Below, piece by piece: positions 605 through 20,308 of a DNA stretch of 25,303 nucleotides. The translations under genes were made by a program, and so were the position numbers. Each line of letters starts with the position of its first letter. Position 1 is the first letter of the stretch. This stretch comes from a virus. Below the pieces are notes generated by a model. The model did no database searches, had not been told where the DNA came from, and worked only from the letters and a program-made list of their open reading frames with translations. The stretch is from positions 1-25,303 of IMG/VR virus record IMGVR_UViG_3300041409_000151, one strand, 5' to 3'.

Positions 605-625
605 CACCCCCTGAAATGGGGGGTG
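605..625. promoter_or_regulatory. Operator-like C6-N5-G6 palindrome without a promoter
   Basis: Arms CACCCCCt and GGGGGGTG flank the 5-base centre gaaat. This is the same architecture as the promoter-embedded palindromes at 3231, 6842, 15012, 17014 and 20284. No TTG-type -35 or TAnnAT -10 flanks it on either strand. It lies between two convergent gene ends, just before the terminator. The heptamer AAGTCTC is repeated in tandem at 592-605 beside it. A binding site for the same protein is inferred. Confidence 0.5.
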
Positions 626-636
626 GGAGCCACGGA

Positions 637-681
637 GAAGGCCCCCGATCGGCGCGGAAGTCTCGCCGGTCGGGGGCCTTC
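637..681. terminator. Bidirectional terminator between convergent genes
   Basis: An 18-bp stem (637-654 with 664-681, one G-T pair) closes a 9-base loop. It lies between the plus-strand gene ending at 530 and the minus-strand gene ending at 696. The stem is bounded by GAA and TTC, giving only a short T run, as is common in GC-rich actinophages. Confidence 0.8.
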
Positions 682-695
682 GTCTCGCAGAGGGG

Positions 696-980
696 TCAGC
701 CGGCGGTCCAGGTGATCGTCTGCTTCCCGCCGCCGTAGCGGTGGTGCCAGAACTCGATCGGGTGCTTCCCCTCGACTTCGTCCAGGACCACGTCGAGCAG
801 GCCCGTGTCCCCGTTCGGGTCGATCGCCTCGAAGCTGTCCCCGGTGCTCTCCTGGAACTCCAGGGAGGCGTACTCGCGGGCGCGCTCCGCCACGCCGGCC
901 TGGCCCATCGCGGTGGACTTCTCCAGCGCGACGTTCCGGGCCTCGACGACCAGCTCCTGTGCGGTGATCTTGTGGGTCAT
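696..980 (-). CDS. Hypothetical protein, 94 aa
   Basis: The ATG at 980 overlaps the stop of the HNH gene (ATGA), which fixes the start; the longer upstream frame is a shadow of that gene. The protein begins MTHKITAQELVVEARNVA, is helical and acidic in its first two thirds, and ends with an aromatic/basic segment (IEFWHHRYGGGKQTITW). I do not recognise the family. It is the last gene of the minus-strand operon and ends just before the 637-681 terminator. Confidence 0.7.
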   Translation of the reverse strand: MTHKITAQELVVEARNVALEKSTAMGQAGVAERAREYASLEFQESTGDSFEAIDPNGDTGLLDVVLDEVEGKHPIEFWHHRYGGGKQTITWTAG

Positions 981-1513
981 GCTGCTGCCTTCCTCGGTTT
1001 GGTGGTGCTCTCTACGAGCAGCGCATACAGCGCGGCCCGCAAGGTCTGGTGATCCCCGGTCATCGGCCAGGTCTCTTCGATCGCCTCCAGCCAGCGCGTG
1101 GCCGTCCAGGCACCGGCGGCCCGCCGGGTGACGTACCCGACGTACTGGTCCCCCAGGTGCACGTACCAGCGGTGGGACGCCCCCCGCAGGCCCCAGGGGC
1201 TCACCCGCGAGCGACGGAGGCCCCGGCGGTGCCACTCCTTCCAGCGGCGGGACTCCAGCGCCATCCGCGCACCCTGGGTCTCCGAGCAGCCCCGGCAGTG
1301 AACGCGGAGGTTCGAGAGCTGGTACCGGCCGCCGTGCTTGCCCGGCTTCTTCCGGTCGCAGATCATCGTGGAGAAGGTGACGGACGTGCCGCACTCCCAG
1401 CAGGGAGCCGAGATCCCGTCGCCGTCGCGGACCAGCAGGGCCTGCTTCCGCCGCCGTCGGCTGGCGGCCGATCCCCGGTCGTTGGTGTTCGAGGTCCCTC
1501 GGGTCACGGTCAC
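977..1513 (-). CDS. HNH endonuclease-like protein
   Basis: The GTG at 1513 overlaps the upstream stop (GTGA) and gives 178 residues; an ATG at 1528 is the alternative start. Residues 38-41 (CWEC) and 73-76 (CRGC) form the structural Cys4 frame of an HNH fold. Between them lies DRKKPGKHGGRYQLSNLRVHC, which carries the D-R, G-G-x-Y and N-L positions of the family. The basic RRRRK stretch at 19-23 suits DNA binding. HNH proteins are common near phage terminases and can assist DNA packaging. This one lies five genes downstream of the gene that follows TerL, in the same co-directional run. Confidence 0.7.
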   Translation of the reverse strand: MTVTRGTSNTNDRGSAASRRRRKQALLVRDGDGISAPCWECGTSVTFSTMICDRKKPGKHGGRYQLSNLRVHCRGCSETQGARMALESRRWKEWHRRGLRRSRVSPWGLRGASHRWYVHLGDQYVGYVTRRAAGAWTATRWLEAIEETWPMTGDHQTLRAALYALLVESTTKPRKAAA

Positions 1514-1899
1514 GTCGTCTCCAGGCATTTCGCGTGGGCGTAGCCCATGTTGGTGTTCACGATCCACTGGCCGGACTGGATGAACGTCGGGCAGAACGGG
1601 CACTTCGTGCCGGTGTAGTTGGCCCGGAAGATCCGACTGGTCTTGACCACGCTGCTCGGGTCGGCCTCGCCGGTGCGGAGCCAGAAGTGGTCTCGCACCG
1701 GCCGGAGCGCGCGAGCGGAGAGCTCTTCGTCCGGCGTCGGCTCGGTGTCCGGCTCGCCGTAGTCCGTGTCCGGCTCGGGCTCAGTGGCGAGCAACGCGTC
1801 CACAAAGGTCGTGTCCGAGCCCCGACACCCTGCGCAGTCCGAGGGCAGGAGGTCCGTCGCGCGGCACCGGCCGTCTTCGTCCGGCTCATGCCTGCTCAT
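1510..1899 (-). CDS. Hypothetical protein with Cys pairs, 129 aa
   Basis: The ATG at 1899 overlaps the end of the upstream gene by 14 bases. There is an N-terminal Cys cluster (C12, C22 and C25) and a C-terminal CPFC plus HAKC set, which together could hold zinc. An acidic linker rich in Asp, Glu, Pro and Thr (about residues 38-60) joins them. It may be a small zinc-binding phage protein; the function is unknown. Confidence 0.65.
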   Translation of the reverse strand: MSRHEPDEDGRCRATDLLPSDCAGCRGSDTTFVDALLATEPEPDTDYGEPDTEPTPDEELSARALRPVRDHFWLRTGEADPSSVVKTSRIFRANYTGTKCPFCPTFIQSGQWIVNTNMGYAHAKCLETT

Positions 1900-2212
1900 T
1901 CGGAACTCCCGTCGGCCCGAGCTTCTGTGTGGTCAGGTGCCAGTGGTTCCCGCCGCGCGTGTCGTGGGACTTGCACAGGTACAGGAAGTGAGGCTTCGCC
2001 GCGATCCGGGCCAGCTGCTGACCGGTGGAACGGGCGATCTCGTTCGTGTCGTAGATCAGCTTCTTCGCGAAGAAGCAGTGGATCGGCCGACCGCACCGGT
2101 CCTGGCGCGCGAAGCGGCGGGCCGTGCTCATCAGCTGGAGGGAGTGGTCAGGCTTCGGCGCACCGAGCCCGATGTTTCGGCGCATCTTTTCGGCGCGCTG
2201 GCTGTGCTTCAT
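1886..2212 (-). CDS. Hypothetical basic protein, 108 aa
   Basis: The ATG at 2212 overlaps the stop of the YdjM-like gene (ATGA). The product is basic and holds scattered Cys and His residues (CGRPIHCFF, LYLCKSHDTRGGNHWHL) that could bind a metal. No family is recognised. It is translationally coupled within a run of small genes downstream of the terminase. Confidence 0.65.
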   Translation of the reverse strand: MKHSQRAEKMRRNIGLGAPKPDHSLQLMSTARRFARQDRCGRPIHCFFAKKLIYDTNEIARSTGQQLARIAAKPHFLYLCKSHDTRGGNHWHLTTQKLGPTGVPNEQA

Positions 2213-2874
2213 CGGCCCTCCAGGAGACTCACGACAGGCGACCACCAGGGCGACCCACCGGCGATCAGGACAAGGCACCCCAGGCCGCCAGCCAGGCCGG
2301 TGAAGACCAGCGTGGCGATCCGCTCACCGACGGGGCCACCGGCGCGGAACCAGCGGAGACCGGACGTGCTCCAGCGACGGCCTTTCGAGTCGAGCAGCGG
2401 CCAGCGCACCGGCACGCCGGACAGCGTCATCGCGTCGCCCAGGATGTGCACCAGCGTGCCGATCGCGAGCGCGACGCCCACGAAGGCGGCCCAGGCGTGC
2501 GCGGGGGTGGCCAGCAGGATCGCGGCCACCCCGCCACCGGTGAGCAGTGGGAAGGGCAGGGTGTGCGTGAAGGTGCGGTGGCACCCGCCCTTGCGGTCCT
2601 TCTCCGTCCGGGTCGCTTCGTAGATCGCCATGCTCGCGTGGCGCATGACCCAGCAGGTCAGCTGCGAGACCACGGGGATGCACTTGGAGATGAACGCGGG
2701 CTTGTGGTCGATGTCCGGCCAGAGCGAGCCCACGCCCACGACGGCTGTGTACGCCCCTGCGAGGGCGAGAGCGCGTACGGGCGTCTCCGCACCCGCCGGG
2801 GCCAGTGCGCCCGCGAGCGGGCTACTCAGCAGCCCCACGGTGGCACCCGAGAGGAAGTGCCCCCGGGCCATCAT
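2209..2874 (-). CDS. YdjM-like membrane-associated metal-dependent hydrolase
   Basis: The 221-residue protein has the conserved polar set of the YdjM/DUF457 family: an early GH (residues 5-6), PDIDH (53-57), HRTFTHT (99-105) and HILGD (143-147), separated by hydrophobic helices at about 8-28, 36-52, 108-145 and 185-210. It should be an inner-membrane protein with its metal ligands at the membrane face. The role in phages is not established; membrane remodelling or modification during infection is a guess. The start overlaps the preceding small gene (TGATG); a second ATG lies at 2871. Confidence 0.75.
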   Translation of the reverse strand: MMARGHFLSGATVGLLSSPLAGALAPAGAETPVRALALAGAYTAVVGVGSLWPDIDHKPAFISKCIPVVSQLTCWVMRHASMAIYEATRTEKDRKGGCHRTFTHTLPFPLLTGGGVAAILLATPAHAWAAFVGVALAIGTLVHILGDAMTLSGVPVRWPLLDSKGRRWSTSGLRWFRAGGPVGERIATLVFTGLAGGLGCLVLIAGGSPWWSPVVSLLEGR

Positions 2875-3029
2875 CGGGCTTTGCCGTTCATCCAGGACAT
2901 CCGGCAGGACTCGACGTAGTCGGCCAGGTCGTTGATCGCGTCGGTCATACTGCTGTCCGACCCGTTCCAGTACTCCTCATCCAGGTGGTGGACCTTGTTC
3001 TGGATCTCCCCCAGCTCTTCGGGGGTCAT
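2871..3029 (-). CDS. Small hypothetical protein, 52 aa
   Basis: I found this short gene by reading the minus strand between its neighbours. The ATG at 3029 overlaps the stop of the gene ending at 3026 (ATGA), and its TGA at 2873-2871 overlaps the ATG of the YdjM-like gene. The product starts MTPEELGEIQNKVHHLDEEY, is acidic and helical, and has one Cys. Perfect coupling on both sides and the lack of any other gene in the gap support it. The function is unknown. Confidence 0.7.
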   Translation of the reverse strand: MTPEELGEIQNKVHHLDEEYWNGSDSSMTDAINDLADYVESCRMSWMNGKAR

Positions 3030-3217
3030 CGGGCCAGCCTCGCTTCGATGCCGGTCCGGGCACGGCTGGCCGCGTCCACGATGTCGCCCAGGTAGGTGAT
3101 CATCTCCAGGGGGTTCGTGCGTTCGTCGAACAGCTCCAGGTTCTCGATCGCCTCGCGGAGCTGGGCCAGCTCCTCTTCCACGTTGACGCCCGTGGTGGGG
3201 CTCAGTTTCGGTGTCAT
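3026..3217 (-). CDS. Small hypothetical protein, 63 aa, first gene of a palindrome-promoter operon
   Basis: The ATG at 3217 is chosen over an upstream TTG because the predicted -10 (TACCAT, 3230-3225) ends only 7 bases before it and there is no Shine-Dalgarno sequence, so a leaderless mRNA starting at or near this ATG is expected. The product (MTPKLSPTTGVNVEEELAQL...) is a mostly helical, amphipathic 63-residue protein of unknown function. It begins a coupled run: 3026, 2871, 2209, 1886, 1510, 977 and 696. Confidence 0.7.
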   Translation of the reverse strand: MTPKLSPTTGVNVEEELAQLREAIENLELFDERTNPLEMITYLGDIVDAASRARTGIEARLAR

Positions 3218-3224
3218 GCCTGGG

Positions 3225-3255
3225 ATGGTACCCCCCAAAATGGGGGGTACGTCAA
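3225..3255 (-). promoter_or_regulatory. Palindrome-spacer promoter (leaderless) for the 3217-696 operon
   Basis: Read on the minus strand: -35 TTGACG (3255-3250), a 19-base spacer filled by the palindrome TACCCCCC-N5-GGGGGG, then -10 TACCAT (3230-3225). Seven bases separate the -10 from the ATG at 3217. Palindrome arms extend to GTACCCCCC / GGGGGGTAC (3228-3250). The hexamer assignment is by eye, and control by a dimeric regulator is inferred. Confidence 0.65.
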
Positions 3256-3259
3256 GGGG

Positions 3260-3751
3260 CTACGCGGGTGGGTCAACGATGCCCAGCGCCCGCCGATTCG
3301 CCCGTACACGCTGAACCAGCTGGGTGTCGTCCCCGTACACCCGGCCGCCCGGGGAACGCCACCGGCCGTCCTCCAGGCGCTTCCAGTCCGCCGGGTTCCG
3401 CGCGTCGCTCCGGGTGATCCGGTTCCGCGTCCGCGTCGGGGCCGGCAGAGCCGTACGCGGGTCGGTCGGGTCCACGTCGGTCATCGCGTCCAGGTCGTAG
3501 ACCTCGCCCTTCCACGCGGCGTAGCTGGCGACCTGGGCCTCCGTGAAGGCGGCCTGGAGCACGTTGGCCAGTTCGTGCGGGGTGCGCGCCACGGCGGCCC
3601 AGCCGCGCGCCTGCGGGCTCGACACGCGTACCCCGCCCGAGGGCAGCGTCTCGACGCGCAGGTTCACCGCGCGCACCTGGTGCCCGGTCCGCGCGGCCCC
3701 GAGCGTTCCCGGGACGTGAGTCTCGCCCTGGCGGCGGATCGGGGAAGTCAT
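3260..3751 (-). CDS. Hypothetical protein downstream of TerL, 163 aa
   Basis: The ATG at 3751 overlaps the TerL stop (ATGA), so the longer in-frame extension upstream is not used. The protein is basic, with a central segment (ELANVLQAAFTEAQVASYAAWKG) and a C-terminal WKRLEDGRWRSPGGRVYGDD motif followed by a basic helix. No family is recognised. Its position directly after the large terminase suggests a packaging or DNA-binding accessory role, but that rests on context only. Confidence 0.65.
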   Translation of the reverse strand: MTSPIRRQGETHVPGTLGAARTGHQVRAVNLRVETLPSGGVRVSSPQARGWAAVARTPHELANVLQAAFTEAQVASYAAWKGEVYDLDAMTDVDPTDPRTALPAPTRTRNRITRSDARNPADWKRLEDGRWRSPGGRVYGDDTQLVQRVRANRRALGIVDPPA

Positions 3752-5574
3752 CGGTACCGTCCGCCGCGCAAGCCTCCGCGCGTGACGCCCTGGCGCTGGA
3801 GCGACGGAACGGCCTGGCTCGGGCGCTTCGGCAGGGACTGGCCGCGCCCGGACGCGGGCGGCTCCATCGTCGCTTCCGTCGACTGGCCCAGGCGCGTGAC
3901 GCCGTGCACGAAGGCGTCCATCCGGTCGGGGCTGTCCTGGCTGTCCTGCCAGCTCACCAGCTGGTGGACCAGCTCGGGGTACGCCTTCGGCCGGCCGACC
4001 AGGTGGACCTTCCCCCACTCGACCATCGGCGCGGCCATCTTCGCCCGATACGTCTTCGTGCCCTTCGCCGGGAAGCTCGACACCGGGACGCCGGTCTGCG
4101 GGAGCGCGAGCACCTTCGGGACCAGCGGCCACAGCTCGGTGAGGTCGCGCTCCAGGGCCAGGATCTCTTCGGGCTCCGCGTCGTCGCGGGCCAGCTCGCG
4201 CGCGGCCTGGTAGACGATGGCCTCATCGGGCAGGGCTGGCCGCTTCCCGGGGAGCAGCTTGAACGGGTCCAGTTCGTCGAGCTTCTTCGCCTCGCGGAGC
4301 AGGTCCTTCCACGCACGCCGGCCGATGCGGCGGAGCCCGGACAGCGACTTCTCGTAGCGGATGGCGGTCGCGTCGTGCCGGACGGCGGCGAGGTACGCCA
4401 CCCGGAACCAGCGACCACTGGTCATCTGTGTGGAGTTGTCGTCCAGGACGTAGACCTCCTGGTCCTCCGCGCCCCGCCCCATCGTGATCACGCCGGCTTC
4501 GTCGCCGTCGCCTTCGTTGTCCGCCGGGTCGACGTAGACCTCCACGGTGGACAGCTCGGGCGCGACCGGCACGCGCGACCGGTCGAGCCAGGTCAGTTGG
4601 TAGATTCCCCCGGCCGGGGGATGCGGGTCACCCATGTAGAGCGCGGACCAGAAGCGCTCCCCGACCTGCTTCCGGATCTCGTCCCACTGCTCGGGGGTCC
4701 GGCCGCGCGTACTGGTCAGGTACTCGCCGGGCTCGCGGCCCAGCGGGTCGCCGGACTTCGCGATGGCGGGGATGATCAGGTGCCGGAACAGCGGCCGGCG
4801 TGTCCCTTCGTCCTGGGCGAGCAGGCGGCCGATCAGGTCGTCTTCGTGCCAGCGGGTGCCGATCACGATCACGATGGCCCCGGGGGAAAGCCGCGTCGTG
4901 GCGGTGGCCTGGTACCACTCCCACAGCAGTTGCCGCTGGGTGGCGTTGTCGGCCTGCTTCGAGTTCTTCAGCGCGTCGTCGATGATCATCACATCGGCGG
5001 AGCGACCAGTCAGTGAGCCACCGACACCGACCGCGACCATGCCGCCGTTCTGTCGGCCGGGGCCGTCGATCAGGTTCCAGTTCGTTTGCTGCGCACGGTC
5101 CGGGTCGAGCAGAAGCCCGAGCTGGTCCTCCTGGTTCGCGTACGTCCGGTCACCCTTGTAGCCGCCGCCGAAGGTCTCGATGGCCTGGCGGACGGCGAGG
5201 GTCGACCGGCCGGCCACGCCCTGCTCATAGGAGGCGACGACGATCCGGCGCGTCGGGTCGCGCATCAGCAGCCACAGGGGCACGGCGGTGCCCATGCGCA
5301 TCGTCTTGCCCTCCTGCGGGGGCGTGCTGATGATCCAGCGACGCTGGAACCCGGAGTCGGCCGCGATCGCGATCTGGTCCAGCGCGGTCATCATGGCCGT
5401 CTGGACCGTGTCGGGAACCAGCAGCTTCGCCAGGTGCCCCGGGCTCGGGTACTCCGCGAGGGCCTTCCGGCGGCGGAGGATGCGGTCCAGGCGGATCTGG
5501 GCCAGGCGTCGTTCGCCGGGGTTCAGCAGATCGAGCTGTTCGCGGATCTCCGCTTCCAAGGGGTCTTCATTCAT
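3748..5574 (-). CDS. Terminase large subunit (TerL)
   Basis: 608 residues, a normal TerL length. The N-terminal ATPase has a Walker A-like loop STPPQEGKT (83-91), a Walker B VMIIDD (195-200) and the coupling segment VIVIGTRWHEDD (236-246), where GTRWHEDDL is typical of phage terminases. The C-terminal RNase H-like nuclease is marked by VEVYVDPADNEGDGDEAGV (D349) and the late acidic pair in DSPDRMDAFVHG (D550, D553). It would translocate DNA into the prohead and cut it. Its start overlaps the TerS stop (ATGA). The last 40 residues are basic and variable. No portal gene follows it, which is unusual. Confidence 0.95.
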   Translation of the reverse strand: MNEDPLEAEIREQLDLLNPGERRLAQIRLDRILRRRKALAEYPSPGHLAKLLVPDTVQTAMMTALDQIAIAADSGFQRRWIISTPPQEGKTMRMGTAVPLWLLMRDPTRRIVVASYEQGVAGRSTLAVRQAIETFGGGYKGDRTYANQEDQLGLLLDPDRAQQTNWNLIDGPGRQNGGMVAVGVGGSLTGRSADVMIIDDALKNSKQADNATQRQLLWEWYQATATTRLSPGAIVIVIGTRWHEDDLIGRLLAQDEGTRRPLFRHLIIPAIAKSGDPLGREPGEYLTSTRGRTPEQWDEIRKQVGERFWSALYMGDPHPPAGGIYQLTWLDRSRVPVAPELSTVEVYVDPADNEGDGDEAGVITMGRGAEDQEVYVLDDNSTQMTSGRWFRVAYLAAVRHDATAIRYEKSLSGLRRIGRRAWKDLLREAKKLDELDPFKLLPGKRPALPDEAIVYQAARELARDDAEPEEILALERDLTELWPLVPKVLALPQTGVPVSSFPAKGTKTYRAKMAAPMVEWGKVHLVGRPKAYPELVHQLVSWQDSQDSPDRMDAFVHGVTRLGQSTEATMEPPASGRGQSLPKRPSQAVPSLQRQGVTRGGLRGGRYR

Positions 5575-6107
5575 CCCGCCGCCTCATCGCTCGGGGCGGC
5601 CTCGATCACCAGGACGCCGGACTCCAGCAGACGGGGGATCTGGTCCTCCCGCTGGTCGACCAGGGAGACCAGTCGCGAGACGGTCTCGTCAATCCGCTGG
5701 TTCGAGATCTGGATCTTCAGGGAGGTCGACAGGCCGGCCAGGTCGGCGACCCGATCGACCACCTTCAGGATGATGTTCGCGGCCTGCGCGTCGCCCGAGA
5801 TCGCGCGAGGCATCCAGCTCTTCTTCAGTAGCCGCAACGTCTCCAGCTCGCGTTCCAGCATGGCCTGCCGGAGTGACGTGTCCGCTTCGGCGACCGCCTG
5901 AAGGGCTCGGTTGAACAGCGTGGACGCCTGGGTCTTCGACATGGGCGGCTCCATGGCCTCGCCCGCTTCGGTCACCGTCATTCCACTGGCGACCAGTTCG
6001 AAAATCCGCTGGGCCTTCAGCTCCGTTTGCGCGATCGTCGCGCGCGGGGTCTGGCTCGGGGCCTTGCCGCCCTTGACGGCCGCCAGGGTGCGCTTCTTCG
6101 GGGGCAT
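5571..6107 (-). CDS. Terminase small subunit-like protein (TerS)
   Basis: A 178-residue protein with a basic N-terminus, a helix-turn-helix around residues 30-65 (IFELVASGMTVTEAGEAM, then TQASTLFNRALQAV), a helical oligomerisation-like centre and an acidic C-terminus. It lies directly upstream of TerL with a 4-base overlap, which is the main support for the assignment; TerS sequences are poorly conserved. An AAGGAG Shine-Dalgarno sits 9 bases before the ATG at 6107. Confidence 0.75.
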   Translation of the reverse strand: MPPKKRTLAAVKGGKAPSQTPRATIAQTELKAQRIFELVASGMTVTEAGEAMEPPMSKTQASTLFNRALQAVAEADTSLRQAMLERELETLRLLKKSWMPRAISGDAQAANIILKVVDRVADLAGLSTSLKIQISNQRIDETVSRLVSLVDQREDQIPRLLESGVLVIEAAPSDEAAG

Positions 6108-6144
6108 CGGGGAGGTCTCCTTCGTGGCGCGCGACTCGACCGGA

Positions 6145-6741
6145 TTAGCGGGAGATCGCGACCGGGAGACCGGCCATGGCCAGGATGTATGCCGAGTTGT
6201 CCTCGACGGGGCGGTGAGGGGCGAGCACGTGAGTGTGGACGTGGTCCTCGGTGTTCCGCAGGCGGTCCACCAGCTGGTAGAAGTTCCGGGCGGCGGTCTG
6301 GCGGCCCTTCAGCCACTGGGCGTTCTGGTTCGAGCCGCGCTCTTCCCGCCGCTGGCGCGCGATCTCGGGGCCGTACAGGTAGAAGAGGTCCAGGGAGTGG
6401 CCGCCTTCGAGCACGGCGGTCACGAAGCGCTTGTTCATCAGGCGCGTGCCCTCCAGCACCACGAACCCGAGGTCGTCCGCGCCTGCGCGGAGCCAGTCGT
6501 CCACGCCCACGATCGCCGTCTGGCTCATCGTGTCGGTGCCGGGGTAGCCCTCGGGGTGCTTGCCCGCGCGGCGGCCCAGCTCGCATCCGACCAGGGCCGC
6601 GTCGTGCCACAGCAGCTCGCGCATCGGGCCGCCGGCCTCGCGGTGGTCGACCTCCGCGCGCTCCAGGTTTCCGAACGCGTGGTCGACCAGTGTGGACTTC
6701 CCGACCCCGGGCTCCCCGACGACGAACAGGATCTTGCTCAT
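6145..6741 (-). CDS. P-loop NTPase, nucleotide/zeta-like kinase
   Basis: 198 residues beginning with a beta strand and Walker A loop (ILFVVGEPGVGKST, GxxGxGKST at 9-17). VDDWLRAG and FVVLEGTRL sit where the second acidic strand of a P-loop kinase would be, and RQRREER could be the lid arginines. This fits an AAA_33/zeta-like or deoxynucleotide kinase fold; the substrate cannot be named. It is the first gene of the terminase transcript, behind a palindrome promoter and an 87-base structured leader. A GGAAGG element lies 9 bases upstream of the ATG. Confidence 0.7.
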   Translation of the reverse strand: MSKILFVVGEPGVGKSTLVDHAFGNLERAEVDHREAGGPMRELLWHDAALVGCELGRRAGKHPEGYPGTDTMSQTAIVGVDDWLRAGADDLGFVVLEGTRLMNKRFVTAVLEGGHSLDLFYLYGPEIARQRREERGSNQNAQWLKGRQTAARNFYQLVDRLRNTEDHVHTHVLAPHRPVEDNSAYILAMAGLPVAISR

Positions 6742-6760
6742 GGTGACCGACCTTCCGTTC

Positions 6761-6824
6761 GGTGATCGGTCTCGCCGTCCGGCCGCTCCCGATTGCGGCG
6801 AGACGAAGCGCGAGACCGATCACC
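6761..6824 (-). promoter_or_regulatory. Structured 5' leader with competing hairpins
   Basis: Perfect 15-base inverted arms (6761-6775 and 6810-6824) lie between the predicted start of transcription near 6828 and the ATG at 6741. Inside, CGGCGAGAC (6796-6804) can also pair with GTCTCGCCG (6769-6777), so two stems compete for the same strand. There is no T run, so a plain terminator is not favoured. RNA-level control is inferred. Confidence 0.5.
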
Positions 6825-6834
6825 CACGGTCGCG

Positions 6835-6865
6835 ATCATAACCCCCAGATTGGGGGTGCACACAA
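6835..6865 (-). promoter_or_regulatory. Palindrome-spacer promoter for the kinase/terminase genes
   Basis: Minus strand: -35 TTGTGT (6865-6860), 19-base spacer holding ACCCCC-N5-GGGGGT, then a near-consensus -10 TATGAT (6840-6835). The flank ATCATAACCCC is shared with the 15005 promoter. Transcription would begin near 6828, only a few bases before the hairpin leader. Confidence 0.7.
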
Positions 6866-6887
6866 TGTGACGCTCAGTCGTTGCCCG

Positions 6888-7169: not shown

Positions 7170-7179
7170 GCCGCACAGG

Positions 7180-8025: not shown

Positions 8026-8028
8026 GGA

Positions 8029-9285: not shown

Positions 9286-9286
9286 G

Positions 9287-10723: not shown

Positions 10724-10739
10724 CTGGTTTCCCTTTCAA

Positions 10740-11768: not shown

Positions 11769-11769
11769 C

Positions 11770-12570: not shown

Positions 12571-12600
12571 GTGGCTACCTCCGCGAAGCAGCCTACGCGA

Positions 12601-12625
12601 CTCACCCCCCAGTCCGGGGGGTGAG
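12601..12625. promoter_or_regulatory. Perfect C6-N5-G6 palindrome without promoter hexamers
   Basis: Ten-base arms CTCACCCCCC / GGGGGGTGAG flank the centre agtcc, the most perfect copy in the window. It lies in the 66-base gap between the helicase stop and the protease start. Neither strand has a TTG -35 or TA..T -10 at the positions used by the other copies. It could be an operator or roadblock for the shared regulator, or act as an RNA hairpin. Confidence 0.5.
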
Positions 12626-12636
12626 TGCGGCGTGGC

Positions 12637-13956: not shown

Positions 13957-13957
13957 G

Positions 13958-14731
13958 TCAGTACTCCAGGAGCTGGTTTCCGACCACGCGCGCAGCGGTG
14001 GACGGGCGGGAGGGAGCGGGACGGCTGGCCGGTCGCGGGCCGCCTTCGAGGGTGTTCCGCAGGCGCTCAGCCGTGAGCGTCCAGCGGTTCTCCGCGATGT
14101 AGTCCAGGGCCTTCTGGATCTGGTCGTCGCGGTATCCGGCGCGGAGTCCCATCCGGATGATCTTCGCGAAGGCGGGCACGTTGCCCATCTTGCCCAGTCG
14201 TTCGTAGTAGTGCCCTGCGAGTGCGTTGGCCCGCTGGTTCTCGGTGGGCTCCTTCGCCGGTCCCTGCTCCGGCTTGCCGGCCTCGAAGAGCGCTTCCGAC
14301 GCGGGAGCGGCGGGGTCTTTAGGTTCTTCTTTTGGGTTCCCCTGGGGGTTATCCCGCTCAGGTTGAGCGGCCCCCCCGCTCGTTTTGAGCGGAGGGGTCC
14401 GCTCGATCTTGGCGGCCCTCCGCTCAGATCGAGCGGAGGTAGCGAGGTCTGCCAGACGGTCGACGTTCAGGCGGTAGATGCTGCGATCGTTGTTCTTGCC
14501 GTCGCTGGCCTTCTGGAGCTGGCGGGCCAGGAGACCCTGCTTCTCCAGCTCCGCGCACGCCTTCCGCGCGGTGGAGAGTCCGCAGTCCGCGCGGCTCGCG
14601 ATCGTGGCCATGAACGGCCAGCACACGCCATCGTCGTTGGCCTGGTCGGCGAGCGCGAGCAGGACCAGGCGGACGGTCGCGGACCCCACGCTCGGGCCGT
14701 CCCACACGTCGGTCATGATCCGGATGCTCAT
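13958..14731 (-). CDS. Replication initiator-like protein (winged-helix N-terminus, lambda O-like layout)
   Basis: 257 residues. The N-terminal winged helix (about 12-95; TVRLVLLALADQANDDGVCWPFMATIASRADCGLSTARKACAELEKQGLL) is of the kind seen in phage replication organisers. Residues about 98-160 are a disordered, charged, Pro-rich linker encoded by the iteron/AT-rich DNA. A helical C-terminal domain (about 165-230) could contact the helicase, whose gene follows after 1 base. The ATG at 14731 has no good Shine-Dalgarno; it overlaps the stop of a small upstream ORF. It would bind the origin and load the helicase. Confidence 0.75.
   Translation of the reverse strand: MSIRIMTDVWDGPSVGSATVRLVLLALADQANDDGVCWPFMATIASRADCGLSTARKACAELEKQGLLARQLQKASDGKNNDRSIYRLNVDRLADLATSARSERRAAKIERTPPLKTSGGAAQPERDNPQGNPKEEPKDPAAPASEALFEAGKPEQGPAKEPTENQRANALAGHYYERLGKMGNVPAFAKIIRMGLRAGYRDDQIQKALDYIAENRWTLTAERLRNTLEGGPRPASRPAPSRPSTAARVVGNQLLEY
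14316..14436. other. Putative replication origin: four iterons plus AT-rich tract
   Basis: Three exact CCGCTC-N5-GAGCGG palindromes lie at 14354-14370, 14376-14392 and 14420-14436. A degenerate copy (CCGCTC-N5-TGGCGG) lies at 14399-14415. Their centres (14362, 14384, 14407, 14428) are 22, 23 and 21 bases apart. Next to them, on the downstream side of the gene, 14316-14338 has 15 A/T of 23 bases in a very GC-rich genome. In phage lambda, four iterons and an AT-rich element lie in the same order inside gene O. The spacing changes reading frame, so protein repeats do not explain it. Confidence 0.7.
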
Positions 14732-14793
14732 CGCGCACCCACAACCGGTGGGGGTTCCGACGGAAAAGTGTCGGCAGATGTTGCTACACTCAC
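14728..14793 (-). CDS. Possible leader peptide (21 aa) coupled to the initiator gene
   Basis: A GTG at 14793 preceded by a GAAAGGA Shine-Dalgarno with a 7-base gap opens a 21-codon frame starting MSVATSADTF. Its TGA (14730-14728) overlaps the initiator ATG (ATGA). The initiator has no good site of its own, so coupling is plausible. The peptide holds a PPP run (residues 14-16), a known ribosome-stalling motif that EF-P relieves. It may be a control element rather than a functional peptide. Confidence 0.45.
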   Translation of the reverse strand: MSVATSADTFPSEPPPVVGAR

Positions 14794-14884
14794 GCCTAGT
14801 TCCTTTCGGGGATCGTGAAGGACCTTCGTTCTTGAGCGGGGCGAAGACTTAGCTGGCGTCGTTCGGGCGACTCAACCAGCACCG

Positions 14885-14917
14885 AGAGCCGGACCCTTAC
14901 GCGAGGGGTCCGGCTCT
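14885..14917. terminator. Strong hairpin in the initiator leader (terminator-like)
   Basis: A 12-bp stem (14885-14896 with 14906-14917) closes a 9-base loop. No long T run follows in the minus direction. It lies about 80-110 bases downstream of the predicted start at about 14998 and could terminate or attenuate the transcript. Confidence 0.5.
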
Positions 14918-14942
14918 TCGGCGTTACGGGCTCGATACCATC

Positions 14943-14990
14943 GGGTGCTCGCCCTCTCGTGCTCGGTGTCCGGGAGGGCGAGCCCACCCG
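14943..14990. terminator. Hairpin at the start of the initiator leader
   Basis: A perfect 10-bp stem (14947-14956 with 14974-14983) is extended by a CGGGT/ACCCG pairing across a 2-base bulge. It begins about 15 bases after the predicted transcription start. It could terminate readthrough from the upstream gene ending at 15027, or be the first element of a regulatory leader. The 295-base stretch 14732-15026 holds this hairpin, the one at 14885, the promoter -10 and most of its spacer, and the leader-peptide ORF. Confidence 0.45.
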
Positions 14991-15004
14991 CTGGGCGTCC
15001 GCCG

Positions 15005-15035
15005 ATCATAACCCCGTGGCGTGGGGTCAGAACAA
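15005..15035 (-). promoter_or_regulatory. Palindrome-spacer promoter for the replication genes
   Basis: Minus strand: -35 TTGTTC (15035-15030, inside the last codons of the upstream gene), 19-base spacer with ACCCC-N7-GGGGT, then -10 TATGAT (15010-15005). The palindrome is weaker than elsewhere: the innermost C-G pair is lost. The flank is identical to the 6835 promoter (ATCATAACCCC). Confidence 0.65.
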
Positions 15036-15590
15036 CTGCTGTGGCCCAACGGTTTCCGGCCGCGAACCGGAGGCACGCTCCGCTCCCTGGGCCAGCTGCT
15101 CCGCCGCCGCCTCGCCGGCCACGGTCAACTGCCACGCCTGCCACGCGCGGCCCCGGTGCTCGCGCGTCACGGCCATTCCGTTGATGACCACTGGAGTGAC
15201 CAGGTTGGCGTCCACCAGCTCGCCACGGCGCGGGCGCTCGGTGTTCGGGTCCATCTTCAGGCGCTCCTGGATCTCGAAGTCCGTGAGGTCGCCGTACTGG
15301 TAGAGCGCCAGCAGAACGGCGGCCCGCTTGGAGCCCGGAGTCAGGACGCGGCCCGCCGCCGCCCGGCTGGTGTCCAGCGCGTCGTTCCGGACCTTCCCGG
15401 GGCGATCCCCCGTGGCGTCGGTCCGGAGGGCGTCCAGGCCATCTGAGAGCTTCTGGATCACGCACACCAGCTCGGACTGGACGCCGGAGGCGACCTGGCG
15501 GAGGTCGCCCGGACCGCGCACCTTGTCGAGATCGCGTGCCAGGGTGAGCGCGCGTTCGGCGCACGTGAGCGCTTCGGAGAAGTCGGTCAT
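15027..15590 (-). CDS. Winged-helix DNA-binding-like protein, 187 aa
   Basis: The ATG at 15590 comes 2 bases after the upstream stop. The N-terminal half is helical (LTCAERALTLARDLDKVRG, VQSELVCVIQKLSDGLDAL). Residues about 90-170 look like a winged helix (KRAAVLLALYQYGDLTDFEIQERLKMD, ELVDANLVTPVVINGMAVTREHRGRAWQAWQLT). It could be a transcription regulator or DNA-binding accessory of replication. It is the last gene of the 17000 transcript, and the next promoter overlaps its 3' end. Confidence 0.65.
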   Translation of the reverse strand: MTDFSEALTCAERALTLARDLDKVRGPGDLRQVASGVQSELVCVIQKLSDGLDALRTDATGDRPGKVRNDALDTSRAAAGRVLTPGSKRAAVLLALYQYGDLTDFEIQERLKMDPNTERPRRGELVDANLVTPVVINGMAVTREHRGRAWQAWQLTVAGEAAAEQLAQGAERASGSRPETVGPQQLF

Positions 15591-15592
15591 GA

Positions 15593-15856
15593 TCAACGCT
15601 TCCTGTAGGCAGGGCTTCGGAGTCCCCAGTCGACGGCCGCCGCGTAGCCCTTGCCGGTGAAGTTCTCACCGATCACCAGTCCGGCGCGGCTCAGGTCGTG
15701 GAAGGCCCGCACCAGGGGCGGGCTCAGGGGCTGGTTCGTGTCGTTGTCGATCGGGTCGGCGGCCCAGGTGTGGATCTTCTTGTCCAGCACCAGCTGGAGG
15801 ACCATCCGGCGCTCGGGCGTCTCGGGGAGGTCGTATTCGTCGCGGTCGGTGGCCAT
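15593..15856 (-). CDS. Hypothetical protein, 87 aa (possible small wHTH)
   Basis: The ATG at 15856 overlaps the preceding stop (TGATG). The product is MATDRDEYDLPETPERRMVL..., with helices in the middle (PLVRAFHDLSRAGLVIGENF) that look like the recognition part of a small helix-turn-helix, and a basic C-terminus (SPAYRKR). No family is recognised. It lies in a coupled series of small early genes. Confidence 0.65.
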   Translation of the reverse strand: MATDRDEYDLPETPERRMVLQLVLDKKIHTWAADPIDNDTNQPLSPPLVRAFHDLSRAGLVIGENFTGKGYAAAVDWGLRSPAYRKR

Positions 15857-16017
15857 CAGCTCATCAGCTCCAGGGTGACCTTCGCCCGACGACCGTCGCC
15901 CATGGTCATTTCGAACTCGGATCGGTTGACCACGGTCAGCAGCGGGCCGACGGTCGCCGCGCGGTCCGCGTCCAGGATGCGGTCCATCAACCAGTTGGCC
16001 AGGTCTTCAGAATCCAT
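15856..16017 (-). CDS. Small hypothetical protein, 53 aa
   Basis: A short gene read directly from the minus strand. The ATG at 16017 is 3 bases after the stop of the 233-residue gene, and its TGA overlaps the next ATG (TGATG). The product starts MDSEDLANWLMDRILDADRA and ends KVTLELMS, with a helix followed by strands. Tight packing on both sides supports it. The function is unknown. Confidence 0.65.
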   Translation of the reverse strand: MDSEDLANWLMDRILDADRAATVGPLLTVVNRSEFEMTMGDGRRAKVTLELMS

Positions 16018-16020
16018 CGG

Positions 16021-16722
16021 TCACTTCTCCTTCGGCTGTTCGCGTTCGATCTTGAACCCTTTGAGCTGGGTCTTCTTCGTGATGGCACCTTTCACGGTGC
16101 TGGCCAGCTTGTCGTCCCCGCGTCCGGCGGCGGCATTCGCGAGCGCCTTCACCTTCGTCACCTGGGCCTCGAACTTGCCGGTCGCCAGCACGCGCTTCAC
16201 GGCTTCGGCCAGCACCCAGGTAAGCGCGGAGACGGACACCTGGGCGTCGCCCTTGAACTCCGCCTGGAACATCTCCGCCAGGGCCTCGCTCACGTCGTCG
16301 TCGGCGAGCATGTCCACCACGGCCGCGCTGATGATCGAGTCCACGTCGAAGGTGTAGCTGTTCGCGTGGTCGCGCTTGACCCTGATCTTCGTGCCGTCGG
16401 TGTCCGGCACCACGGCGTCATCGTTCGGGACGCCGTCCTGCTCGCCGTACATCAGGGACAGCTGCTCGCCCGAGCGCGCCCGCACGTCCTTCGCGAAGTC
16501 CAGGAACGCCCGGCCGTAGTCGACGGCGGTCTCCTCGACGGCGGCGTACCGGCGGATCAGGGCGTACGCGTCCTCGGGCTTCTCGATCTCCGCCCCGCCG
16601 CGCGCGGCGTACTCCTCCGCCTGGAGAGCGTCGAGCCCTTCGCGGAGCACAGTCCGCAGGCTCTTCGTGGTCGGGAGCTGCTGGCCGTCGTGGAGCACCA
16701 GGCCCACGTCGGGTTCGGTCAT
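16021..16722 (-). CDS. Hypothetical early protein, 233 aa
   Basis: The ATG at 16722 is 2 bases after the upstream stop; a longer frame reading through the upstream gene is a shadow. The N-terminal half is acidic and helical (LRTVLREGLDALQAEEYAARGG, YALIRRYAAVEETAVDYGRAFLDFAKDVRA). The C-terminal half has TWVLAEAVKRVLATGKFEAQVTKVKALANAAAGRGDDKLASTVKGAI and a basic end. No known family is recognised. Its place between the SSB and initiator operons suggests a role in DNA metabolism, from context only. Confidence 0.7.
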   Translation of the reverse strand: MTEPDVGLVLHDGQQLPTTKSLRTVLREGLDALQAEEYAARGGAEIEKPEDAYALIRRYAAVEETAVDYGRAFLDFAKDVRARSGEQLSLMYGEQDGVPNDDAVVPDTDGTKIRVKRDHANSYTFDVDSIISAAVVDMLADDDVSEALAEMFQAEFKGDAQVSVSALTWVLAEAVKRVLATGKFEAQVTKVKALANAAAGRGDDKLASTVKGAITKKTQLKGFKIEREQPKEK

Positions 16723-16724
16723 GA

Positions 16725-17000
16725 TCACTTCTCCTTCGCGTATTCGATGACGGCGTCCCGACTGGGGTCCAGCTGGACGTGATCGAAGACCACGGCGGGC
16801 GCGCAGCAGCGGCACGCGTGGAGCAGGTCGTTCCCCGCACCGCGAACGGGCACGTAGACGTTGCACTCGATCTGCTGGCCTTCGAGCTGGCACCACTCGC
16901 AGTTCTCGCCGTGGTGGTCGATCTGGTCGGCCCAGACCTCGCGGAACGCGATGTGGATCGTGGGACGGCCGGTGATGCTGAAGTTCGGCGCGGTGGTCAT
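16725..17000 (-). CDS. Cys-rich small protein, 91 aa, first gene of a leaderless operon
   Basis: The ATG at 17000 follows the -10 (TACGAT) by 7 bases and has no Shine-Dalgarno, so the mRNA is expected to be leaderless; the longer frame upstream runs through the palindrome and terminator and is rejected. Six Cys residues (CEWC, IEC, HACRCC) and several His suggest a zinc-binding fold. The function is unknown; it leads a run of small genes that ends at 15027. Confidence 0.7.
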   Translation of the reverse strand: MTTAPNFSITGRPTIHIAFREVWADQIDHHGENCEWCQLEGQQIECNVYVPVRGAGNDLLHACRCCAPAVVFDHVQLDPSRDAVIEYAKEK

Positions 17001-17007
17001 GGTCAGG

Positions 17008-17036
17008 ATCGTACCCCCCAAAATGGGGGGACACAA
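17008..17036 (-). promoter_or_regulatory. Palindrome-spacer promoter (leaderless) for the 17000-15027 genes
   Basis: Minus strand: -35 TTGTGT (17036-17031), spacer CCCCCC-N5-GGGGGG of exactly 17 bases, then -10 TACGAT (17013-17008). It abuts the terminator of the SSB operon. This is the only copy with a 17-base rather than a 19-base spacer. Confidence 0.65.
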
Positions 17037-17072
17037 GTAGACCCCCGGAGCCGCACCCTCCGGGGGTCTACT
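17036..17072. terminator. Terminator after the SSB gene
   Basis: A 15-bp stem (17036-17050 with 17058-17072) closes a 7-base loop. It lies between the ssb stop and the next palindrome promoter, separating the two transcripts. About 78 bases between it and the ssb stop hold nothing I recognise. Confidence 0.75.
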
Positions 17073-17150
17073 ACTCGCGTTCGCCGCGTGCGCCACACAC
17101 GGCCCGCGCTCACCGACGGCAGACGATCACCACTCGCCCGCGTCGGGAGA

Positions 17151-17753
17151 TCAGAAAGGCGGTTCGTCGGTGAAGCCTCCGCCGCCCTGGCCTCCGCCGC
17201 CGCCCCACTGGTTGGCCGGCGGAGCGCCCCACGGGTCGTCGGCCGGGGCTCCGCCGCCGCGCTGGCCGCCGCCGTACTGGCCGCCCCCGCCCTGCGGACG
17301 CGACTGCTGGCGCTGGCCGCCGCCACCACCGCCACCACCGCCACCCCAGTCGCCGCTGCCCTGCTGGCCGCCCCCGCCGCCGCCCTGCTGGCGCTCGATC
17401 CGGTTGATCCGCACCGTGGCGAAGCGCAGGTCCGGCGTGACGCTCTCCGCCTGGATCTCCAGGCTCTGGCCCTCGCCACCCTCGCGGGTCTCGTACTTGC
17501 GCAGGCACACCGTCCCGATGACCACCACGCGGTCACCCTTTGCGTACGACTCCGCGACGTTCTCCGCGTACTCGCGCCACACGGTGACGCGGTACCAGGT
17601 GGTCTCCCCGTCCTCCCAGCGGTCGCCATTCTTCACGCGGCCCTGGACGGCCAGGTTCAGGCTCGCGACGGCGACGCCGGCCGGGGTGAAGCGGAGTTCC
17701 GGGTCGGCACCGAGCCGACCCACCGCCTGGATTCGTGCGTCTCCTACAGCCAT
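17151..17753 (-). CDS. ssb: Single-stranded DNA-binding protein
   Basis: 200 residues; GGAGG precedes the ATG by 7 bases. The OB fold (1-115) has the SSB hallmarks: QAVGRLGADPELRFTPAGVAVASLNLAV, TTWYRVTVWREYAENVAESYAKGDRVVVIGT and the LEIQAESVTPDLRFATV end. A long glycine-rich linker (about 122-192, with runs up to 10 Gly) leads to the acidic tip DEPPF, the docking peptide for partner proteins. It coats ssDNA in replication and ERF-mediated annealing. It is the last gene of its operon. Confidence 0.95.
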   Translation of the reverse strand: MAVGDARIQAVGRLGADPELRFTPAGVAVASLNLAVQGRVKNGDRWEDGETTWYRVTVWREYAENVAESYAKGDRVVVIGTVCLRKYETREGGEGQSLEIQAESVTPDLRFATVRINRIERQQGGGGGGQQGSGDWGGGGGGGGGGQRQQSRPQGGGGQYGGGQRGGGAPADDPWGAPPANQWGGGGGQGGGGFTDEPPF

Positions 17754-17789
17754 CTCATCCTCCGTTAGTTGATCTTCTAGCTGGGCAGG

Positions 17790-18974
17790 TCAGTTCGTCC
17801 ACGGGTCCGGCGGCGGCTCCTGCGGGAGCGGCGGCCGGGGCGGACCAGCGTGGCGTCCGTCGAGCGCGTTGGTCAGGGACACCCCGAGCGACCGGGCTAC
17901 CGACTGGTAGCCGGACAGCACGGACCGCAGGTTGTGCTGGGCGTCGCGGAGTGCGCGCACCAGCATGGACGCTTCCGTGGCCTCGAAGCGCTGGCGCTCC
18001 GTCGCGATCCACGCCTCCGCCTTGCGCTGGTCGGCCGCCTTCGCGTCGGACTGCGCGATCGCCAGGTTGTAGCGGAAATCCAGGTTGTGCTGGGCCGCGT
18101 GTTCCCGGGCGATCTGCTGGCGGAGGAACAGCTCGGAGCGGTCGATCGCGCGCATGATGTCGACGATCTTCAGCTCCACGTCCTCCGGCGTGTACGGGAG
18201 CGTCGGGTCCAGCGGGTCGAGCCGATCCACCAGCGGGTCCAGCGTCTGACCCTCGGTGGGGAAGATCGGGGTTCCCGCGAACGGGACGATCTCCTGGCCG
18301 ACGGCCGGCTCCTCGCGGACGGCGATCTCGCCGCCGGGCTGCTCCGCCGGAATCCCCTCATTTGAGGGTTTCCGGTCGTCGGTCCACGGCGGGATGTCCG
18401 ATTCGGTCTGGGCTTCGTCGGCCAGCTTCGCGAAGTCGACCGGGCCGGCGACCGCCACGGCCTCCTCCGCCACGGGCGCGGCGGGCCAGGGCTCGGGCTC
18501 CGGTTCGTCGTCCGGCGTGTCGTCGCCCCACGGGTCGCCGTCGGTCGGGCCTTCCGGCACGTCGTACGGCAGATCGTCGTACGCCACCCGGCCGTCACCG
18601 GCGGGCAGGCCCTCGGGCTCCTGGACCTCGGGCTCCTGGTAGTCGCCGGGCTCGGGCGCGTTGTCCGCACCGGGGAGCACGGTCGCAGGCTCGCCGGCCT
18701 CCGGCTCGGGCGTCGGCCGCGAGTACGCTCCGAAGGCACCCTGGACGCGGCCGGGTGCGCTCGCCGCGTCGACCTGCTCCGCCGCCTTGCGCTTCGTGTA
18801 CTGGGCCAGCGTCTCACGGTGCTCGGGGTCCGGCCAGCCGAGCACGTCCCCGCACGCGCACACGACGCCTTCGGCCGTCGACCAGCGCGCGTGCCGCGTG
18901 CCGGACTTGTGGCCGCTGTGCTCGGGCCAGTGCTCTTCGATCGTCGTCTGGGCCGTCTTGACCTCGCCTGCCAT
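17790..18974 (-). CDS. Hypothetical acidic protein with C-terminal helical domain, 394 aa
   Basis: The ATG at 18974 overlaps the ERF gene stop (TGATG). There are three parts: an N-terminal domain with a small Cys/His cluster (GVVCACGDVLGWPDPEH), a long acidic Pro/Glu/Asp-rich disordered region (about 85-270), and a helical, probably coiled-coil segment (about 280-375; IVDIMRAIDRSELFLRQQIAREHAAQHNLDFRYNLAIAQSDAKAADQRKAEAWIATERQRFEATEASM). No family is known to me. Its location between the annealase and SSB suggests it helps recombination. Confidence 0.7.
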   Translation of the reverse strand: MAGEVKTAQTTIEEHWPEHSGHKSGTRHARWSTAEGVVCACGDVLGWPDPEHRETLAQYTKRKAAEQVDAASAPGRVQGAFGAYSRPTPEPEAGEPATVLPGADNAPEPGDYQEPEVQEPEGLPAGDGRVAYDDLPYDVPEGPTDGDPWGDDTPDDEPEPEPWPAAPVAEEAVAVAGPVDFAKLADEAQTESDIPPWTDDRKPSNEGIPAEQPGGEIAVREEPAVGQEIVPFAGTPIFPTEGQTLDPLVDRLDPLDPTLPYTPEDVELKIVDIMRAIDRSELFLRQQIAREHAAQHNLDFRYNLAIAQSDAKAADQRKAEAWIATERQRFEATEASMLVRALRDAQHNLRSVLSGYQSVARSLGVSLTNALDGRHAGPPRPPLPQEPPPDPWTN

Positions 18975-19855
18975 CACTGGCCGCCCTTGGCCTGCTGGTC
19001 CAGGAACGCCTGGGCCTGCTCGGGGGTGGGCATGGCGCGGTTCGGGTCGATGCCGAAGCGGGACATCTCCGCCTTGATGCGCTGGCCCAGCGGGACACCG
19101 GCCGCGTCGACTTCGAGCAGCTGGCGCTGGCGGGTGATCATGTAGATGTAGCTCAGCCGGACCAGGTCCGGGAGCGCCTTGATCTCGCGCTGGACCCAGC
19201 CGATGTGCGCCTGGACGTTCTCCTCGCGGGTGCCGTTGGCCTCCGGCGGCTGGACACCCTGGACGCGCGCCTGCTCGCGTGCGGCCTGCTGGCGCGTCCG
19301 GGCGGCGGCGTTCGGGTCGTAGCCCTGGCCCTGGCCGACCGGCCGGGAGTAGTCGCCGTCCCCGGGGCGTTCGGTGTCCGGGTCCTTCTCATCGGTGGGC
19401 AGTAGGAACGCCTGCCCGAGCGCGGCCTTCAGCGCCATGGTGTGCGCCTTCATCGTGGCTTTGTCCGACGTGTCCGCGCCCTCGCCCCACGCCTCGAAGG
19501 TGAGGGTCGAGCCGTCCTCCAGGGACGTGAAGCGGTAGCTGATCTTCACGCGGACCGTGGTCCAGACGTTGCCGGACTGGGTCTTCCGGTCGCGGTCGCT
19601 GTGGAACTCCAGCTGCTCGGACTGGACGAAGACGCCGTGCGTGCGGAACGCGGTTCCGAGGTCGCGGGCCAGGTCGTCGATCGAGCGGAATTTGTACTCC
19701 GTCCGACCTTCCTTGTACTGGCTCGCCTTCGCCACGAAGGTCACGTCCTTCATGACGCGCCAGATCGCGGCGAGGATCTTGGGAGGGCCGTAGCCCGGCT
19801 GGTTGGGGTCGTCGGCGGGCATGGTCGGTTCACCGATCTGGGCAGGCGCGGTCAT
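18974..19855 (-). CDS. ERF-family ssDNA-annealing recombinase
   Basis: The ATG at 19855 follows the upstream stop by 2 bases; a GTG at 19861 overlapping that stop is an alternative. The ERF core is clear: ILAAIWRVMKDVTFVAKASQYKEGRTEYKFRSIDDLARDLGTAFRTHGVFV, then YRFTSLEDGSTLTFEAWGEGADTSDKATMKAHTMALKAALGQAFLLPTDEKDPD, which carries the family's G-E-G-D-DKA-T-A pattern. A variable linker and a helical C-terminus follow. It should anneal complementary ssDNA, with the SSB two genes downstream as partner. Confidence 0.9.
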   Translation of the reverse strand: MTAPAQIGEPTMPADDPNQPGYGPPKILAAIWRVMKDVTFVAKASQYKEGRTEYKFRSIDDLARDLGTAFRTHGVFVQSEQLEFHSDRDRKTQSGNVWTTVRVKISYRFTSLEDGSTLTFEAWGEGADTSDKATMKAHTMALKAALGQAFLLPTDEKDPDTERPGDGDYSRPVGQGQGYDPNAAARTRQQAAREQARVQGVQPPEANGTREENVQAHIGWVQREIKALPDLVRLSYIYMITRQRQLLEVDAAGVPLGQRIKAEMSRFGIDPNRAMPTPEQAQAFLDQQAKGGQ

Positions 19856-19857
19856 TC

Positions 19858-20271
19858 TCACTCGCTCTCGGGGTCGTTGTCGGTGGTGGTCTCCGGCTCG
19901 GGCGCGGCGGCGACGCGCACGATCGTGCCGGTCTCGACGTAGATCTTCAGCAGCTTCTCGACGGCCTCCGGCACTCGCACGCCGGACGCCTCGATCGCTG
20001 CTCGGGTGGCCTTCTTCTTCGCGGCGGGCACCTGGAACCGGATGCGCTCGCGGTCGACCCCGTACTCCCGGGGCTTGAGCAAGTCCCGGCCGCCGGGGAC
20101 GGGAACCGCGAGGGCCGCCGCCGCGTAGTAGCAGGCCCGCGTGACGCTCGCCAGCGTCTCGCCCTGCTGGGTCGCGCGCTTCATGGCGGCGTTGTAGGTG
20201 TCGGTCTCGATGTAGAGCTCTTCCGGCGAGGGCGACACCTCCGCCTCTTCGGGAGACTTGAGTTCGTTCAT
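19858..20271 (-). CDS. Ribbon-helix-helix-like protein, candidate regulator
   Basis: 137 residues. The ATG at 20271 lies 6 bases after the -10 with no Shine-Dalgarno, so it should be leaderless. Residues about 77-114 fit an RHH unit: strand RIRFQVP, helix KKKATRAAIEASG, turn, helix PEAVEKLLKIYVETG. The N-terminus is acidic, a central helix (NAAMKRATQQGETLASVTRACYYAAAAL) may dimerise, and the tail is acidic. As the first gene behind one of the palindrome promoters, it is the most natural autoregulator visible. This is inference. Confidence 0.6.
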   Translation of the reverse strand: MNELKSPEEAEVSPSPEELYIETDTYNAAMKRATQQGETLASVTRACYYAAAALAVPVPGGRDLLKPREYGVDRERIRFQVPAAKKKATRAAIEASGVRVPEAVEKLLKIYVETGTIVRVAAAPEPETTTDNDPESE

Positions 20272-20277
20272 GCGGCC

Positions 20278-20308
20278 ATCTTACCCCCTATGATGGGGGG
20301 TAAGACAA
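20278..20308 (-). promoter_or_regulatory. Palindrome-spacer promoter (leaderless) for the recombination operon
   Basis: Minus strand: -35 TTGTCT (20308-20303), 19-base spacer TACCCCCC-N5-AGGGGG, then -10 TAAGAT (20283-20278); the ATG is at 20271. The outer arms CTTACCCCC / GGGGGGTAAG make it nearly symmetric, and TAAGAC is present on the plus side (20301-20306), so weak transcription towards the HNH gene is possible. Confidence 0.7.

Follow-up and report, generated by a model that had tools for sequence, protein, structure and literature searches.

The stretch of DNA analysed here (the window) is the 25,303-bp virus record IMGVR_UViG_3300041409_000151. It has a G+C content of 69%, and its genes were called by codon usage. 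Phage genes for a terminase, an endolysin, a DnaB-like helicase, an initiator, SSB and Erf are present. A first-pass annotation listed seven interrupted palindromes, and all seven are found in the window (Table 1). As it described, five of them lie exactly between a TTG-type -35 element and a TANNAT -10 element on the minus strand, with spacers of 19, 19, 19, 19 and 17 bp, and precede operons of different function, an arrangement that is conserved in relatives. The distance from the dyad centre to the -10 element is 8 nt in all five. The pattern TTGN6CCCCN7GGGGNTANNAT matches the window four times but never occurs in 100 shuffles, and CCCCN{5,9}GGGG has 23 overlapping matches where 8.6 are expected. 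The suggested seven-site family holds for these five promoters, but the two at 605 and 12605 belong to another type of site.

Table 1. Palindromic sites of the window and the gene of the candidate regulator.
Feature	Positions	Strand	Elements	Context	Relatives
Dyad without promoter geometry	607..623			Convergent intergenic gap	
Promoter-operator	3225..3255	-	TTGACG-19 bp (CCCCCCATTTTGGGGGG)-TACCAT	ATG 7 nt past -10; predicted leaderless gene 3026-3217	
Promoter-operator	6835..6865	-	TTGTGT-19 bp (CCCCC AATCT GGGGG)-TATGAT	Upstream of inverted-repeat leader and P-loop kinase/terminase operon	Best dyad, with 1-4 mismatches, upstream in 8/8 family members
Related dyad at -35 position	12590..12621	-	CCCCCCGGACTGGGGGG, 9 nt, TAGGCT	Upstream of peptidase/endolysin genes	
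Promoter-operator	15005..15035	-	TTGTTC-19 bp (CCCC ACGCCAC GGGG)-TATGAT	Upstream of inverted-repeat leader and replication initiator/helicase genes	Near-identical sites in G002, G003, G005, G006
Promoter-operator	17008..17036	-	TTGTGT-17 bp (CCCCCCATTTTGGGGGG)-TACGAT	ATG 7 nt past -10; predicted leaderless gene 16725-17000	Dyad upstream in 14/14 family members; 29-30 nt from called start in 12/14
Tandem RHH protein, 137 aa, proposed dyad binder	19858..20271	-		AlphaFold2 model and fold match	First gene behind own dyad promoter in 16/16 (position only)
Promoter-operator	20278..20308	-	TTGTCT-19 bp (CCCCCC ATCATA GGGGG dyad)-TAAGAT	Before RHH/Erf operon; start codon 6 nt past -10 (predicted leaderless)	Dyad in matching place in 16/16 gene-family members

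The leaders behind the promoters at 6835 and 15005 (6742-6834 and 14732-15004) contain the inverted repeats GGTGATCGGTCTCGC/GGCGAGACCGATCACC and GGCTCGCCCTC/GAGGGCGAGC. Their outline is kept in relatives, and leader control is possible. The P-loop kinase (6145-6741), encoded behind a dyad promoter and directly upstream of the terminase genes, has weak similarity to zeta toxins. A convergent gene at 3-530 on the plus strand, with a counterpart in the relative G017 (38720-41408), resembles the C-terminal part of an FtsK/TraB-like translocase that ends in a winged helix (HTH_IclR match). In relatives it is adjoined by the gene of a small membrane protein. Together they resemble the plasmid transfer genes of Streptomyces, which is odd for a phage.

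Dyad promoters in related contigs

Viral contigs were scanned with the promoter pattern, and a further scan using the 17-bp form gave more matches. The family found consists of high-G+C contigs, several of them with multiple matches, all on one strand. Including the window, 26 contigs were read, many of which are near-identical or partial; G014 was left out as a chance, unrelated match. G015, G017 and G019 have 127-bp terminal repeats and appear complete. Both the dyad and the promoter geometry recur in the relatives. Since the motif served to retrieve most relatives, the share of dyad-bearing contigs is ascertained, whereas the fixed geometry, the extra sites and the relative G027 described below are unaffected.

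The dyad CCCCCCA-NNN-TGGGGGG (CCCCCCANNNTGGGGGG) occurs 231 times with at most two mismatches in 27 contigs (G014 among them), compared with 12.7 times in Markov shuffles. Enough flanking sequence is available for 223 of the dyads. Of these, 211 (~95%) lie between genes, and 143 are flanked by a TTG and a TANNNT at fixed offsets, with a spacer of 17 bp in 75, 18 bp in 51 and 19 bp in 17. Removal of near-identical flanks leaves 87 promoters (17 bp, 56; 18 bp, 25; 19 bp, 6), and TTGACA is the commonest -35 element among them. The promoter counts are lower bounds because promoters with CATGAT-like -10 elements were not counted. In this family of actinobacterial phages, a single genome has up to ~20 copies of one palindromic dyad. 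The central triplet is alike in 0.233 of pairs within a genome and in 0.110 of pairs between genomes (0 of 2000 shuffles).

The palindromes could also be hairpins in RNA or DNA, acting as terminators or attenuators, with the promoter elements being incidental. They do fold stably (-15 to -29 kcal/mol), and the sites at 605 and 12605 may be hairpins, the latter with compensatory changes in its stem. The fixed -35 and -10 offsets in 143 of 223 sites, however, speak against this explanation. Furthermore, 25 single changes (T/G or C/A) are seen at positions 5/11, where a compensated T-A pair never occurs. Since the changes in the arms are one-sided and uncompensated, the spacer dyad is a DNA site and not a hairpin, and we regard hairpins as an extremely improbable explanation of the family.

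A search of 257 Gb of bacterial and archaeal genomes gave one match to the promoter pattern, apparently by chance, in a Pseudoxanthomonas contig. The binder of the dyads is therefore probably phage-encoded. Phages do use host regulators, and a host protein exploited by the phage might read the operators; given this single match and an operator sequence that differs between phage lineages, this is very improbable. The earlier proposal of one dimeric regulator from phage or host is thus best read in its phage-encoded form. The family is supported as one promoter type with a dyad in the spacer. The dyad is best taken as the operator of a single regulator, dimeric or pseudo-dimeric, that the phage encodes.

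Predicted leaderless starts and atypical sites

An ATG or GTG follows exactly 6 or 7 nt past the -10 element in 46 of the 87 promoters, whereas most other offsets occur about once each. The window promoters at 3225-3255, 17008-17036 and 20278-20308 have this spacing. Judged from these distances, the mRNAs of about half of the promoters should be leaderless, a feature that was absent from the first-pass annotation and is added here. The relative G015 has small genes behind dyads at 699, 5697, 8041, 9851, 11528, 11900 and 12405. Most of their products begin with MTN, as if a cassette of operator, promoter and first codons had been copied whole.

Promoter elements are absent around the palindrome at 605, which is probably a terminator-like hairpin. 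The site at 12605, before the lysis genes, is without TTG, and its dyad is followed by a TAGGCT hexamer at the distance given in Table 1. Its stem is extended (ACTCA/TGAGT) and shows compensatory changes in some relatives; the extension is missing in G016 and G019. Sites of this type in relatives have a conserved TANNNT 8-9 nt downstream of the dyad. In a minority of dyads the TANNNT hexamer does not adjoin the dyad but follows 5 or 9 bp downstream (G001 41897, G020 8705, G021 21702 and the 12605 type). Because some dyads stand at -35 or have no promoter, plain repression from the spacer does not account for them. The dyads in the -35 place are possibly activated promoters.

The first-pass annotation had compared the long spacer holding a dyad with MerR-type activated promoters. 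A bound regulator might activate, either by MerR-like twisting at 19-bp spacers or by contact with the polymerase where the dyad replaces the -35 element. The 19-bp spacers and non-consensus -35 elements in four of the five window promoters and the conserved layout of the lysis-gene site are consistent with activation, and the viral regulator AvtR both activates and represses (PMC5569661). The family as a whole, with its spacer mode at the canonical 17 bp and TTGACA as its commonest -35 element, points the other way. Additionally, the MerR domain PF13411 has no match in eight genomes or records, whereas the control gave a match in 12 of 14. The 17-bp mode and the lack of a MerR match in these records argue against MerR activation as the general mechanism, so that the MerR-type comparison is not supported. 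Activation of either kind is improbable, although it may act at the 19-bp promoters or at the site before the lysis genes.

A predicted tandem ribbon-helix-helix protein as candidate regulator

The gene behind the promoter at 20278 encodes a putative tandem ribbon-helix-helix (RHH) protein. The AlphaFold2 model contains two RHH units in one chain (E14-22, H23-35, H40-54 and E74-82, H83-94, H100-114) with pLDDT values above 90 in the core. Two diverged members were modelled in all, this one included, and both models have two RHH motifs in one chain. In a fold search with the RHH model, TraY of the F plasmid is the best match (Z 9.5) and AvtR scores Z 7.3. Sequence searches of Pfam and the PDB gave no RHH match; the predicted assignment is based on the AlphaFold2 model together with a weak match to an Arc-like PHROG (E 0.02, 4/11 members).

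Arg74 and Arg78 are invariant in the alignment of the RHH proteins. By alignment to Arc, the residues that face the DNA would be E18 and position 20 in the first strand, and R76, R78 and position 80 in the second. The acidic residue that the first strand thereby turns towards the DNA counts against the proposed binding. A search with the RHH protein alone returned 15 contigs, all of them already dyad-bearing, and a search with an RHH alignment returned the same phages and G027. The gene was not found in the isolated-phage collection and is absent from 17 more distant terminase relatives, among which the site is present in only one short fragment. The predicted tandem fold, the dyad promoter before the gene and this co-occurrence strengthen the suspicion of an RHH regulator raised in the first-pass annotation.

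G027 was found by a terminase search and is a complete genome of 60,437 bp with a 127-bp terminal repeat. Its RHH gene (E 1.1e-23) occupies the same position, flanked by the HNH and Erf genes. No dyads of the type described so far (class A, C6ANNNTG6) are present in this genome. Ten promoters have, at the same promoter position, a class B dyad, CCCCG-N8/9-CGGGG (CCCCGCGCCAGTCGCGGGG), followed by TACATT-like -10 elements. In seven of the ten an ATG stands at 6-7 nt, and one of the ten lies directly before the RHH gene. None of the main-family genomes tested has a class B dyad followed by TA. The G027 protein has the same predicted fold as the window protein and retains R74, R76 and R78, while E18 is replaced by Asp and position 20 by Lys. 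This switch is the best evidence that RHH protein and dyad belong together; it comes from one pair of lineages, in linked genomes. Further class B contigs (IMG/VR 3300036784_000094 and 3300036795_000165) have the form TGTNCCCCG-N9-CGGGGTACA, a second operator lineage.

The same operators could be read by another phage protein, for example the one encoded at 15027-15596 or an unrecognised immunity repressor. The former has a winged-helix-like C-terminus, is present in every complete genome including G027, and its gene belongs to an operon that a dyad promoter precedes. It matches phrog_1123 (phage proteins without assigned function; E 1.9e-7), so its relatives probably also occur in dyad-free phages. 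The RHH protein, in contrast, is found only in dyad-bearing phages. We consider a different phage binder unlikely.

Two other classes of regulator were rejected as binders: WhiB is absent from the complete genomes G015 and G027, and the domain of HTH_3-type repressors is not found in eight genomes or records. WhiB-like genes are present in G009, G016, G017 and G019, with one or two per genome. Tyrosine and serine recombinases (PF00589, PF00239) have no match in nine genomes or contigs; lysogeny without integration is conceivable.

Proposed mechanism and related systems

We favour near-consensus sigma-A promoters that are repressed by an autoregulated phage protein and shut off in a coordinated manner. 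The palindromes would be operators built into sigma-A-type phage promoters. Both RHH halves of one chain would form one DNA-binding unit, and two molecules would occupy each dyad, one on each C6/G6 half-site, which the 11-bp distance between half-sites would fit. The conserved second-strand arginines R74, R76 and R78 would be in a position to touch the G-tract. From its site between the -35 and -10 elements, the RHH protein would block RNA polymerase, also at its own promoter. The promoters would fire early and be shut off jointly as the protein accumulates. Many transcripts would start at the start codon, so that operator, promoter and translation start may form a compact cassette that was copied around the genome. 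We infer both the binding by the RHH protein and repression rather than activation. The joint reading, in which the tandem RHH protein binds the dyads and represses the promoters including its own, has a probability of just under 0.6 in our estimate.

A more far-reaching reading is tentative, and we doubt it more than we believe it. A single-chain tandem-RHH master regulator would read a fused cassette of operator, sigma-A promoter and leaderless start, present in copies around the genome, and control most transcription. Between lineages its operator specificity would have gone from C6ANNNTG6 to CCCCG-N8/9-CGGGG, the protein and all of its sites changing in step, and it may repress from the spacer and activate from the -35 place.

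The nearest known cis-elements are the extended start-associated sequences (ESAS) of cluster K mycobacteriophages. These are SigA-like promoters that recur in intergenic regions, have a spacing of 17-18 bp and imperfect inverted repeats of 15-17 bp, and are usually accompanied by a 13-bp SAS close to a start that has a leader; their consensus differs by subcluster, and repression by an unidentified regulator was proposed (PMC3203893; PMC11373665). Adephagia has seven copies, whose regulator is not known (PMC11373665). The promoters described here are likewise repeated, intergenic and SigA-like, combine an inverted repeat with spacers of 17-18 bp, and appear to work like ESAS without being members. 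They differ in sequence, in the C6/G6 dyad, which fills the spacer exactly, in the predicted leaderless state of about half of the transcripts and in having a named candidate regulator. The 13-bp SAS GGGATAGGAGCCC near start codons has no match in the window at up to two mismatches. Further systems for comparison are the G-tract operators of the CsoR/RicR type and the conserved inverted repeats of phiC31.

AvtR of Acidianus filamentous virus 6 (4HV0) is a tandem RHH protein that represses its own gene and binds eight conserved sites of the viral genome (PMC5569661). The candidate shares with it the viral origin, the predicted tandem RHH architecture, several putative sites conserved at homologous genes and, by position, one at its own gene. 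In contrast, AvtR belongs to an archaeal virus with TATA/BRE promoters, has an AT-rich site and shows no significant sequence similarity. Both TraY and AvtR are single-chain RHH pseudo-dimers (PMC12117103; PMC5569661). TraY (relaxosome entries 9F0X-9F12; PMC12117103) also holds a whole RHH dimer in one chain but acts in plasmid transfer at oriT. The stoperators of cluster A mycobacteriophages are asymmetric, and the monomeric two-domain repressor that binds them also halts elongation (PMC9283540; PMC6550527). Similar to the dyads, they occupy many sites across the phage genome and their specificity varies between groups. The dyads, however, are symmetric, with their centres in promoter spacers, and a phage integrase was not found.

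Phage-wide promoter dyads with an unidentified regulator have been known since 2011 from ESAS; the present family adds a named candidate for the regulator. The cassette could mark gene starts and provide a promoter signature for annotating this phage family. G027 keeps the layout with a different palindrome, which makes the pairing of protein and site directly testable. With a named candidate, a compact site and a switched relative, regulator-operator coevolution and leaderless control in phages become testable.
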